From Allocoleopsis franciscana PCC 7113 (GTDB lineage: Bacteria > Cyanobacteriota > Cyanobacteriia > Cyanobacteriales > Coleofasciculaceae): 64,000 bases of DNA. The first letter of the stretch is position 1; each line of letters begins with the position of its first letter. The notes under the pieces were generated by a model. The model saw only the letters and a program-made list of their open reading frames with translations. It was not told the origin of the DNA and ran no database searches. This document shows positions 22,417 through 26,610 of the stretch, in pieces. Made by a program: the position numbers and the translations under genes. The stretch covers positions 7,156,001 through 7,220,000 of the forward strand of contig NC_019738.1 in assembly GCF_000317515.1 (NCBI RefSeq), given 5' to 3'.

Positions 22417-23247
22417 ATGAACGAAGTCAGTAGCCATGAACACCAAAAATTGATGGAGGTGAATACTGTGAAAATACAAGAAGAAACTTTTGCATTTTCC
22501 ATGCATTCCAAAACTATTCTCACAGAAATAGAGGGAAGGGGAAACTCAGAACAATCAACTCCTAAGTCGGGTCTAAACGCTACCCTCACAGGTCTTGACC
22601 TTAAGCGAGATTATGACCAAGGCGAACGAAACTTTAGCCAGATAGACCTAGCTCAGGAAAACCTGGTTTGGATGGATCTTAGTGGAGTAAACTTAAGCCA
22701 AGCCAATCTCCAACAAGCCAAACTAAGCGCAGCAACGTTAAAAGGAGCCAAGTTACGAGAGGCAAATCTCCAAGGGGCTAATCTGCGAGCTGTAGACTTG
22801 AAAAATGCCGACTTGTGTGGTGCTAATTTGCAGGGAGCTGATTTAAAAAGAGCCGATCTGATTAATACTAATCTAAGTGGAGCAGACTTAAGCGGCGCAA
22901 ACCTCACCGATGTGATTTTTGAAAAAGTTAATCTACGTGAAGCCAATCTCAGAGGTGCTAATCTTCAGGGACTTGATTTAAGTGAAGCTGACTTAACGGG
23001 TGCAGATTTGAGTGAAGCTAATTTAAACGGAGCACGGCTACAAGAAGCGCAGCTATCTCAAGCCAATTTGAGCGGATTAGATATGACGCACCTCAATCTA
23101 AGCGGAGCCAATTTGAGACAAGCAAATTTAAGTGAAGCACAGTTGAGTCAAGCCCAATTATATGGCACTGACTTAAGAGGAGCCAATCTTGATGAGGCTA
23201 TCCTCGATCAAGCTAAGCTAGCAGGAGCTAAGTTGCCACAGCCGTAG
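22417..23247 (+). CDS. Pentapeptide repeat protein
   Basis: After about 85 residues of unrelated N-terminus, this 276-residue protein is an almost unbroken run of A(D/N)LXX pentapeptides (ANLQGANLRAVDLKNADL and so on), enough for a right-handed quadrilateral beta-helix of about nine coils. No signal peptide or membrane segment is seen, so it should be cytosolic. Functions of this family in cyanobacteria are mostly unknown; only a few members mimic DNA (the MfpA/Qnr type), and nothing here supports that. It is divergent from the rimB-rimK operon with about 100 bp between. An in-frame ATG at 22453 is an alternative start. Confidence 0.88.
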   Translation: MNEVSSHEHQKLMEVNTVKIQEETFAFSMHSKTILTEIEGRGNSEQSTPKSGLNATLTGLDLKRDYDQGERNFSQIDLAQENLVWMDLSGVNLSQANLQQAKLSAATLKGAKLREANLQGANLRAVDLKNADLCGANLQGADLKRADLINTNLSGADLSGANLTDVIFEKVNLREANLRGANLQGLDLSEADLTGADLSEANLNGARLQEAQLSQANLSGLDMTHLNLSGANLRQANLSEAQLSQAQLYGTDLRGANLDEAILDQAKLAGAKLPQP

Positions 23248-23547: not shown

Positions 23548-24756
23548 TTAAGATTCTGGTAACTTATATTGTCCAACAATCCGCTTGGCGTACTCTGGAA
23601 CATGTTCCTCTAACTTCTCAGGGTGATTACGCTTTACATATAAATAGTTGCGGGTGAAGTGGGAATCTATCGAGAAACGGGCATACTCTAAACCTTGAGG
23701 ACCAATTCTTTCAATCACCACACCCATCAGTTTTGCCGCCCACATCGGCAGTGTGACGCCTTTGTCATAGGCGGGAATGCTTTGCTGTACAGCATTGCGT
23801 CTGTCACCCTTAGACATCACAGGCTGCGTTTCCAGTTGGTTTTGCACCAAATCCAGCATTTCTTGTCCCGTGTCATTGCGTACCACAATCCACTGCCAAC
23901 CAAAGGGTGCTCCCATGTAGCCCACCACTAAATCGGCTAAGGAGTTCACGTAGTCAAAACAGCTCATGCAAGAGGGGGCAAAGACATCTTTGAGTTGGTT
24001 TGTCTTCAGTCCGAAGAAAGGGACAGTTTCAGTGGAACCATCTTCGTGTTTGAAGTGAACCCGAAAGTCTTGCATGAACTCGTAATGCACGACTGTTTCT
24101 GGAGAACGGCTAGTGGTATCTAGGAATTTTTGCAATCCATCGCGGGTGACATTATCGACGCAGGGTGTTCCTAAAACGTAGAGCTTTTCTAATCCGAGCT
24201 GTTTTTCAACGGCACGTAATGCCTGGATTTGGCAACCAACGCCAATCACTAGCAGTCGCTTCATCCCCGATTGTTCTATTTGCTCTAACACGGAAAGGTT
24301 AGGCGAGAGGGTGGGTTTATTCACCCGTGCTGCCAGAATTTCTTCTGGAGTTCGAGCAATAATGGGCATGGGTTGAAAGCGGTCTTCTTTGGTGTTTTGC
24401 ACACAGACGACGCCTTCGACGATGCCGCGATTGAGCATTTCAATGGCAATCGTGCTAACAATTCCTGTCCACTGTGCCCCCTCAATTGGCTCGGTTTTCC
24501 GGGCTGCCATCATGTTCTGGTTGACGCCAAAGTACCAATCATCGGGATTATCGAGATGGCGGCTGCGTCCGTGTGCTTCTTCTTCGAGTTCAGCAATTTG
24601 TTGGTTTAAGAAGGCACAAGCTTCCTTGACATAGTGAATGTAATATGTATCGCAAAGTCCACACTCGCTACACAGTTCTTTGGCTGGGCGACGGCTGGAA
24701 GATTTGAGGGCTTTGGCTTTTTTATGCTTGGCGGAATCGGGAGTTGTTGCAGTCAT
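23548..24756 (-). CDS. bciB: Ferredoxin-dependent divinyl (proto)chlorophyllide 8-vinyl reductase, BciB type
   Basis: This 402-residue protein of the FrhB/F420-hydrogenase beta-subunit family matches cyanobacterial BciB (Slr1923 type), which reduces the 8-vinyl group of chlorophyll precursors with ferredoxin. Iron-sulfur cysteines are visible in LCSECGLCDTYYI near the N-terminus and in FAPSCMSCFDYVNSLADLVVGYMG in the middle; VIGVGCQIQALRAVE and LYVLGTPCVDNVTRDGLQKF are typical. The related 7-hydroxymethyl chlorophyll a reductase of plants is the main alternative; in cyanobacteria the BciB assignment is usual. The ATG at 24756 (MTATTPDSAKHKK) is preferred over an upstream frame reaching 24846, whose 30 extra residues look non-conserved. 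It is monocistronic. Confidence 0.92.
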   Translation of the reverse strand: MTATTPDSAKHKKAKALKSSSRRPAKELCSECGLCDTYYIHYVKEACAFLNQQIAELEEEAHGRSRHLDNPDDWYFGVNQNMMAARKTEPIEGAQWTGIVSTIAIEMLNRGIVEGVVCVQNTKEDRFQPMPIIARTPEEILAARVNKPTLSPNLSVLEQIEQSGMKRLLVIGVGCQIQALRAVEKQLGLEKLYVLGTPCVDNVTRDGLQKFLDTTSRSPETVVHYEFMQDFRVHFKHEDGSTETVPFFGLKTNQLKDVFAPSCMSCFDYVNSLADLVVGYMGAPFGWQWIVVRNDTGQEMLDLVQNQLETQPVMSKGDRRNAVQQSIPAYDKGVTLPMWAAKLMGVVIERIGPQGLEYARFSIDSHFTRNYLYVKRNHPEKLEEHVPEYAKRIVGQYKLPES

Positions 24757-25077
24757 TGAAAGGTCGTCTCTTAAACTCAGGTCAATTTTCTCACGATTTC
24801 TGGGTGTCGATGGCGTGAGGTGTGCGTCGCTTGATATAAAGCCCAAAATTCTCTATATTTCATAGCCTTCCGCTGTATTCACGGGGGTTTTTGCTGTTCC
24901 AAAAACTGCTCGATTTCTGCGAGGTAGATGAGAAAGAGGGAAATGCGATCGCTCAAACAATTCTGATCTACAACTCGATATGACGCTTCAGGGTGTGGAA
25001 TGTAGGTTGATACAAACTCAACAGAGATGAGGCTACTTTATATCTATGTACTAGCAAGCAACAGGAAAAACATCAAC
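24757..25077. other. Intergenic region upstream of bciB and the PspA-like gene
   Basis: About 320 bases between divergent genes. It contains one HIP1 site and an A/T-rich portion, but no convincing hairpin, repeat or ORF. Promoters for both genes are expected here. Confidence 0.5.
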
Positions 25078-25842
25078 ATGGTTTTAGTCGATCGCATCAG
25101 CCGGATAGTTAGAGCTAACTGTAAAGATATGACAGACAAGCTTGAGTTTGGAGAAGGCGCAGGCTTTATGGCTACAGGAGCGGTTACAGGTGCTGGAGTT
25201 TCGGCAACCATTGGTGGAATGGGATTAGTCGGAGGATTTGGAGGAATTAGTATTGGCATGGCTCCGGTTACAGCAGCAGGAGCGATCACAGGTGCAGCAG
25301 TTTACGGGGGCACAAAAGCGATAGAGAATAAAGATGCTTCGGCTTTGGGTGCTGCTGCCCTTGGAGCGATGGGTGGTGCTGGGGTTTCTAGCGCTGTTGG
25401 TGGGATGGGCTTAGCTGTTGGTGGAACCGCTGTAGGAATTGGTATGGCTCCGGTTGCAGCGGCTGGTGCGGTGGTAGGACTGGGTGCCTATGGTGTGAAT
25501 CAACTTCTCTATCAGACCAAAACTAGTGATAATCCTGAAAAAGTCATTGAATCCCTTAAGCAAATCAAACTAAGCATACAGCAGGAAATTGCTAATTTAA
25601 CTGCCAGCAAAGAACTGATTCAAAAGCAGTACAAGCAAGCTCATCATGAAGTTAGCTCTTGGCATAAAGTCGCTGAAGCGGCGATGAAAGCAGGACGTGA
25701 GGATTTGGCTTGTAAAGCTTTGGAGCGTAAGCTTTTTCATCAGCAAAATGTTACTACATTCAAAACTCAGTTCGAGCAGGTAACAGCAAGAATACAGTCT
25801 CTCCGAGGCGACTTGAGCGTTATAGAACTCATTTGCCAATGA
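25078..25842 (+). CDS. PspA/Vipp1-like protein interrupted by a duplicated glycine-zipper membrane domain
   Basis: This is a 254-residue protein in three parts. Residues 1-20 (MVLVDRISRIVRANCKDMTD) closely resemble the amphipathic first helix of PspA/Vipp1 (IM30). Residues about 28-150 are two copies of a glycine/alanine-rich hydrophobic module, both containing IGMAPV-AAGA, typical of a glycine zipper inserted in membranes. Residues about 160-254 form a coiled-coil hairpin (KQYKQAHHEVSSWHKVAEAA, AGREDLACKALERK) matching the part of the PspA core that carries the G-x-E-D-L-A-x-x-A-L-E-R-K signature. The normal first core helices are replaced by the membrane module. The ATG at 25078 has AGGAA 10 bases upstream. 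The inferred role is membrane binding or repair; a standard PspA would be about 220-260 residues without the insert. Confidence 0.7.
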   Translation: MVLVDRISRIVRANCKDMTDKLEFGEGAGFMATGAVTGAGVSATIGGMGLVGGFGGISIGMAPVTAAGAITGAAVYGGTKAIENKDASALGAAALGAMGGAGVSSAVGGMGLAVGGTAVGIGMAPVAAAGAVVGLGAYGVNQLLYQTKTSDNPEKVIESLKQIKLSIQQEIANLTASKELIQKQYKQAHHEVSSWHKVAEAAMKAGREDLACKALERKLFHQQNVTTFKTQFEQVTARIQSLRGDLSVIELICQ

Positions 25843-26227: not shown

Positions 26228-26428
26228 GTGGCTATACCACTCAACATAAACGAAGCCTTGCTACAAGAAGCACTCGCACTTGATGACCAGACAACCATTA
26301 ATGCTCTGGTTGAAACAGCCCTTCGTGAATATATTCAACGTCGCAAACGGCTCAAAGTATTAGACATCTTTGGTACCATTGATTATTACGAAGACTACGA
26401 CTACAAGCAGCAACGCCAGCAGAGATGA
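26228..26428 (+). CDS. vapB: VapB-type antitoxin
   Basis: This 66-residue protein begins with a GTG preceded by AGGAG. The ribbon-helix-helix-like N-terminus (IPLNINEALLQEALALDDQT) and ALREYIQRRKRLKVLDIFG match the type II antitoxin family paired with PIN-domain VapC toxins; the acidic/aromatic C-terminus (DYYEDYDYKQQRQQR) is the usual toxin-binding tail. Its stop overlaps the following vapC start by ATGA (26425-26428), the usual translational coupling. The toxin gene is truncated, so this antitoxin may be an orphan. It should bind its own promoter. Confidence 0.8.
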   Translation: MAIPLNINEALLQEALALDDQTTINALVETALREYIQRRKRLKVLDIFGTIDYYEDYDYKQQRQQR

Positions 26429-26610
26429 GCGTCATTGTTGATACCTCTGTTTGGTCACTGGCTTTGCGTAGGAGAACGCCACCCGACTCTTCCCCAGCCG
26501 TCACACTATTGCGGGATTTAATCACTGCAAGGGGCATCCCCCCTGAGTATCTCATGGCGTTGGTAAGAAATCAGCGATCGCTCTCAATTATCCTTTACTC
26601 AACCAAATAA
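26425..26610 (+). pseudogene. vapC: VapC PIN-domain toxin, truncated remnant
   Basis: Only 61 codons remain, against about 130 for a working VapC. The first 35 residues are recognisable (MSVIVDTSVWSLALRR, SPAVTLLRDLITARG) and keep the first catalytic aspartate of the PIN domain. After that the sequence no longer matches PIN and ends over the 3' end of the convergent hydrolase gene. The other acidic residues are missing, so RNase activity is not expected. It is coupled to vapB by a 4-bp overlap. It is best read as a decayed toxin-antitoxin locus. Confidence 0.75.

Follow-up and report, generated by a model that had tools for sequence, protein, structure and literature searches.

PspA and Vipp1 (PF04012) are ESCRT-III-like proteins of bacteria. 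In known members, contact with the membrane is made by the alpha0 helix and by surfaces that bind lipid, or else by separate partner proteins. A 254-amino-acid open reading frame in the window (the whole 64,000-nucleotide stretch of DNA that was analysed) raises the question of what such a protein becomes when a large glycine- and alanine-rich segment is built into it. By architecture and ancestry, the product is almost certainly a PspA/Vipp1-derived alpha0 helix followed by a Gly/Ala insert and a PspA hairpin. There is another possible start at an upstream ATG (25027), but the homologues L017 and L053 begin at the equivalent of 25078. The gene is laid out as follows.

25078 to 25842, plus strand: whole gene (254 aa), encoding alpha0, a double Gly/Ala module and a PspA/Vipp1 hairpin.
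25078 to 25149, plus strand: alpha0-like amphipathic N-terminal helix, aa 1-24, from a PSSM, phmmer and a model helix at aa 2-21.
25147 to 25332, plus strand: Gly/Ala repeat 1, aa 24-85, with predicted helices at 26-46 and 61-83, from the repeat score and the model.
25333 to 25518, plus strand: Gly/Ala repeat 2, aa 86-147, with predicted helices at 87-106 and 124-149, from the repeat score and the model.
25528 to 25839, plus strand: PspA/Vipp1 hairpin of alpha1 (aa 153-204) and alpha2 (aa 208-253), without alpha4-alpha5, from PF04012, pLDDT and superposition.
25693 to 25731, plus strand: GREDLACKALERK, the hairpin-tip signature, from alignment (Vipp1 interfaces 1 and 3, PMC8281802).

The N-terminus was scored with a PSSM built from 19 distinct cyanobacterial Vipp1/PspA N-termini, which gave z=10.1; none of 3825 background Met-24mers scored as high, and the homologue N-termini tested likewise lay above all of them. 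When phmmer was run against Vipp1 in the PDB, aa 2-24 aligned with Vipp1 2-24 (a piece that is by itself below significance) and aa 151-250 with Vipp1 23-126. These pieces are colinear, and the insert therefore sits between alpha0 and alpha1. The hydrophobic moment of the alpha0 helix was 1.42, against 0.78 for shuffled sequence (P=0.065). The N-terminal 20 aa alone gave no PspA match in Pfam, being too short a query to tell. A first-pass annotation had read the first 20 or so residues as alpha0-like and both ends as PspA/Vipp1 in ancestry. The PSSM and the colinearity agree with it at the N-terminus, and PF04012 does so at the C-terminus, where a PspA core signature had been claimed: the family profile matched at E=4.1e-14 (53.2 bits against a curated cut-off of 33.9, profile positions 41-122 of 220). 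The phage shock protein PspA equivalog, TIGR02977, scored 43.3 bits, below its cut-off of 242.95, and the window protein is therefore a derivative rather than PspA itself.

The helix limits given above, including 153-204 and 208-253, are those of an AlphaFold model made from a 41-row alignment, in which confidence is limited to the hairpin (pLDDT about 93-98 over aa 161-240). A first model, from nine rows, gave no confidence for the Gly module, and 41 rows were only slightly better. The model hairpin superposed on VIPP1 26-130 (7o3w) over 104 residues with a Z of 12.5 and an rmsd of 1.9, a comparison that is informative for the hairpin and not for the Gly module. The best sixteen Foldseek matches were all Vipp1/PspA structures; their E-values were modest because the Gly module is poorly modelled. 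Helices alpha1 and alpha2 are complete, whereas the end of alpha3, alpha4 and alpha5 are absent, the protein stopping at about Vipp1 position 126-130. The insert had initially been taken to stand in place of the usual early core helices. Alignment and phmmer rule out a replacement of alpha1, which is intact; it is alpha4-alpha5, kept in the longer homologues, that is missing. Two other lines of search were set aside. PHROG tape-measure and PADLOC defence matches were weak and of low-complexity or coiled-coil type, and a plasmid search returned a single PspA match, to the hairpin only, on a Nostoc plasmid, with no sign of a plasmid-borne gene.

The best-conserved stretch of the hairpin is its tip, which in Vipp1 is the docking place for alpha5 of a neighbouring subunit (PMC8281802). 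Vipp1 1-191, which lacks alpha5/6, forms neither rings nor filaments (PMC8281802), and for this reason the proposal that the protein could nucleate polymers is unlikely to hold for the window protein alone as a homopolymer.

The two Gly/Ala repeats of about 62 aa each (aa 24-147) are real copies, as the first-pass annotation had it: the repeat-against-repeat local score was 140, against 52 +/- 7 for shuffles, and 0 of 2000 shuffles scored as high. The module is 27% Gly and 23% Ala. Its description as a glycine zipper stands in one respect and falls in another. Gly pairs four residues apart (34/38, 68/72, 96/100 and 130/134), one in each predicted helix, vary little or not at all across 41 sequences, but the count of GxxxG motifs, 10 against 8.8 +/- 2.2 in shuffles (P=0.38), does not exceed what composition predicts. 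The best 19-residue hydropathy is 1.15-1.8 and model pLDDT is mostly below 50; with the module only marginally hydrophobic and its model of low confidence, membrane insertion is plausible from these measures. A profile search with the module found no Pfam or PDB relative; the PDB matches that appeared (kinases, transporters), at E 0.025 or worse, were taken as chance. Marginal hydropathy, low pLDDT, GxxxG at the level of composition and the lack of a profile relative would all suit a self-assembly module, soluble or lying on the surface, that clusters PspA hairpins and is no membrane anchor. We regard that as rather unlikely, since the four predicted helices are about 20-26 residues long with few charges and a conserved Gly pair each, and the module adjoins a membrane-binding helix and accompanies membrane-remodelling cores in at least two arrangements. 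The module is probably a membrane anchor.

Whole-genome and GTDB-contig searches with local profiles found the same module of about 122 aa in four arrangements. Arrangement A, with nine distinct members, is alpha0, the Gly module and a full PspA core (one, L021, has a predicted start without alpha0). Arrangement B has the hairpin only and comprises the window gene, the 79% identical L017 and the more distant L053/L076 copy. Arrangement C, with 33 distinct members of about 600 aa, two of them with incomplete frames, is the Gly module followed by an alpha5 segment, a WD40 domain and DnaJ. Arrangement S is the Gly module alone, about 140 aa. The homologue survey for the same insert proposed at the outset thus found it recurring in nine longer homologues and two further short-form ones. 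PF04012 spans aa 137-343 in both L008 (E 8e-40) and L018 (E 4e-47), two of the longer homologues, and the insert aligns after alpha0. A tree of 60 modules recovered A as a clade (97/72 support) and the window gene with L017 as another (99/96); the latter grouped with A and S and not with most C. Of 386 cyanobacterial genomes sampled phylum-wide, 44 had the module; among genomes of the order the figure was 51 of 190. Single-repeat relatives exist, including in Thiotrichaceae, a non-cyanobacterial group, where two small proteins of about 145 aa (L012 6001-6270 and L015 6001-6288) have one copy of the Gly repeat. A 28-residue remnant of the Gly repeat lies about 100 bp past the 3' end of the 79%-identical orthologue (G185:C285:15376-15459, within L075).

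Within its own genome, the next-best match of the window protein after the Gly paralogue was the hairpin of L003 (L141 3741-4451), a known type of fusion in which an LRAT-type (NlpC/P60-like) domain is joined to a PspA hairpin that lacks both alpha0 and alpha5. Canonical Vipp1 and PspA genes (L004 and L005) are both present in the genome.

The absence of alpha4-alpha5 could be read as decay, the short form being a truncated remnant of a full-length Gly-Vipp1 with no distinct function. In L008, which is also beside the bciB gene described below, the insert is followed by a complete PspA core, and breaks or shortening are seen in certain related genes (L002/L135, L173). Against such decay, the short form is of near-equal length in L017 and in the more distant L053/L076 copy, and dN/dS between the window gene and L017 is 0.41, falling to 0.28 in the hairpin part. 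These values point to moderate purifying selection, and we consider the remnant explanation very unlikely. The order alpha0, insert, hairpin recurs in homologues and is no chance product.

Directly after the Gly module, the type C protein has a segment similar to Vipp1 alpha5: hhalign aligned it with Vipp1 positions 163-236 at 98.5% (E=2e-15), with 34% identity over 70 columns. An HMM of this segment found 25 of 25 canonical Vipp1/PspA proteins at E <=1.3e-7, with reversed controls at E >=0.77, and whole-genome PF04012 searches, made independently, hit type C proteins in nine genomes, the matches lying at profile positions 151-218 and all scoring under the family cut-off. A 'qFaxLE' motif with equivalents of F197 and L200 is kept in the type C profile alignment, while single-sequence HMM alignments scatter at these columns; in Vipp1, F197 and L200 are required for normal assembly (PMC8281802). 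The remainder of the type C protein is a clear WD40 propeller and a J-domain, the HPD motif being present in 30 of 31.

The genes for the two kinds of protein also occur together. Of about 31 type C regions, 7 have a PspA-hairpin gene directly beside the type C gene, where 0.19 would be expected if shared ancestry is ignored. The PspA neighbours in L076, L086, L088, L095 and L100 are hairpins with no alpha5, and in L053/L076 the adjoining gene has the window architecture itself. For about 24 of the 31 type C genes, the few kb of surrounding sequence examined contained no PspA gene, and none was found when the upstream neighbours of several were read by eye for hidden PspA halves. A test of co-occurrence gave P=0.013, again ignoring shared ancestry; in genome G185, which holds the 79%-identical orthologue, the Gly profile found no type C companion. 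The type C gene of the genome to which the window belongs (L135 4778-8216; G000:C1 about 6828777-6832215, minus strand) is split by a two-ORF IS inside the alpha5 segment, so the companion may be non-functional there; a double-PspA gene follows it (L135 3023-4702). A genome of the same genus, G133, has an intact type C copy (L113) with a 626-aa frame.

Two accounts of the hairpin have to be weighed here. It may act as an autonomous membrane-anchored adaptor that has no alpha5 partner and binds lipid, packs beside Vipp1 hairpins or binds VIA1-like recruiters, thereby marking Vipp1 sites. A hairpin is by itself able to bind membranes, and Vipp1 interactomes include hairpin proteins that are membrane-integral (PMC13051332); an alpha5-less hairpin is also fused to the LRAT-type domain of L003, and the interrupted companion in this genome fits the same account. 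We nevertheless think this unlikely, although less so than the clustering and remnant explanations, since conservation of the hairpin is greatest at the tip that takes alpha5 in Vipp1 and alpha5-less hairpin genes adjoin the alpha5-bearing companion gene in several genomes. Docking of the window hairpin in trans to alpha5 donors, the other account, we rate at a little under an even chance.

Two further features lie upstream of the window gene.

23548 to 24846, minus strand: BciB-type (Slr1923-like) 8-vinyl reductase gene of chlorophyll synthesis, the divergent neighbour, from its match to HCAR 5dqr and synteny.
24847 to 25077, no strand: intergenic region of 231 bp that separates bciB from the window gene, the two being divergent, from coordinates.

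The neighbour is an FrhB-family gene whose best PDB match is the plant HCAR 5dqr (E=7e-143); in cyanobacteria, FrhB-family genes of this kind have been shown to encode BciB/Slr1923, the 8-vinyl reductase (PMC4836224). In other genomes bciB adjoins A, B, C and S genes. By coordinate comparison among the Gly-bearing genomes of a 148-genome sample, a Gly gene lay within about 3 kb of bciB in about 9-10 genomes from about seven families, against 0.07 expected with shared ancestry ignored. Sixty further bciB regions, picked for breadth, had a Gly or PspA gene in six, four of which overlap the 148-genome sample, and the link is therefore recurrent and not general. Three PspA genes beside bciB (L137 2071-3102, L138 1784-2815 and L139 1895-2890) have no Gly module and carry a second segment resembling alpha5 to the C-terminus, with positions about 178-255 matched twice. 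Also in the window, a pentapeptide-repeat protein of 276 aa is encoded two genes upstream (22417-23247), and two small ORFs of 66 and 61 aa at 26228-26610, read from their sequence, look like a toxin-antitoxin pair, the second being short and PIN-like.

The overall reading that we favour, and to which we give about an even chance, is that the window protein is a membrane-tethered, alpha5-less Vipp1/PspA derivative whose hairpin is offered to alpha5 from Vipp1/PspA or from a J-domain partner. The alpha0 helices of a Vipp1 ring line its lumen, where they face the membrane (PMC8281802), and it is at this membrane-facing site, between alpha0 and alpha1, that the Gly/Ala module of four predicted helices is inserted. 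With an even number of spans, the hairpin would stay with alpha0 on the cytosolic side, and a peripheral subunit would become an anchored one. With the polymerising alpha4-alpha5 lost, the protein would not be expected to self-polymerise into rings or filaments. It would instead display an anchored alpha1-alpha2 hairpin, the tip of which might accept alpha5 of another protein as Vipp1 subunits j and j+3 do, giving it an anchoring or capping role. The donors could be full Vipp1/PspA (L004/L005 here) or the type C companion, which has a Gly module of its own and whose J-domain could bring DnaK for polymer disassembly, as CDJ2/HSP70B do on chloroplast VIPP1; CDJ2 is not known to carry a Gly module, a WD40 propeller or the alpha5 of PspA. 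The likely setting would be the biogenesis, repair and upkeep of thylakoid or plasma membranes. A more speculative version, which we think is probably not correct, is a split ESCRT-III in some cyanobacteria, in which acceptor hairpin and donor alpha5 reside on separate membrane-anchored proteins, the donor also bearing the WD40 propeller and J-domain, and their pairing in trans at a membrane site controls polymer growth and DnaK disassembly.

If the favoured reading is true, a lineage with a built-in membrane module and with alpha5 on a J-domain protein makes the placement and nucleation of bacterial ESCRT-III testable, as well as the route by which Hsp70 is directed to dismantle Vipp1/PspA polymers. 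Natural hairpin-only and alpha5-only proteins would also be tools for probing the alpha5 domain-swap model of ESCRT-III assembly. A search of open-access papers found nothing relevant on PspA/Vipp1 with a glycine zipper, or on WD40 with DnaJ and PspA or thylakoids; as its scope was open-licence papers only, it is weak evidence of novelty.

Among known systems, Vipp1/IM30 and PspA share with the window protein the alpha0 sequence, the sequence and fold of the alpha1-alpha2 hairpin and the tip signature; the window protein differs in having a Gly/Ala module of about 125 aa after alpha0 and in lacking alpha4, alpha5 and alpha6, all of which its longer homologues retain. The main text of a survey of PspA architectures (Ravi et al. 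2024, PMC11237479) describes tandem, NlpC/P60 and PspAA fusions and names no glycine-rich, WD40 or DnaJ fusions. The PspA_IM30-NlpC/P60 (LRAT-type) fusions covered there, of which L003 is an example, likewise join a cyanobacterial PspA hairpin to a membrane-acting domain, but they have a catalytic LRAT-type domain where the window protein has its Gly module, and they are without alpha0. CDJ2 and HSP70B assemble and disassemble VIPP1 in algae (PMC10602608; PMC13051332), and this J-domain protein of Chlamydomonas chloroplasts, directed at Vipp1 polymers, offers a model of how the companion may work (PMC10602608). VIA1 and the PPR/At1g64430 protein, the latter with an ESCRT-III-like hairpin and transmembrane helices, are membrane-anchored and thought to recruit or organise Vipp1 (PMC13051332), and in this they resemble what is proposed for the window protein. 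Compared with the window family by description, they are reported to be without overall similarity to eukaryotic ESCRT proteins, and the order alpha0, insert, hairpin is unreported for them (PMC13051332).
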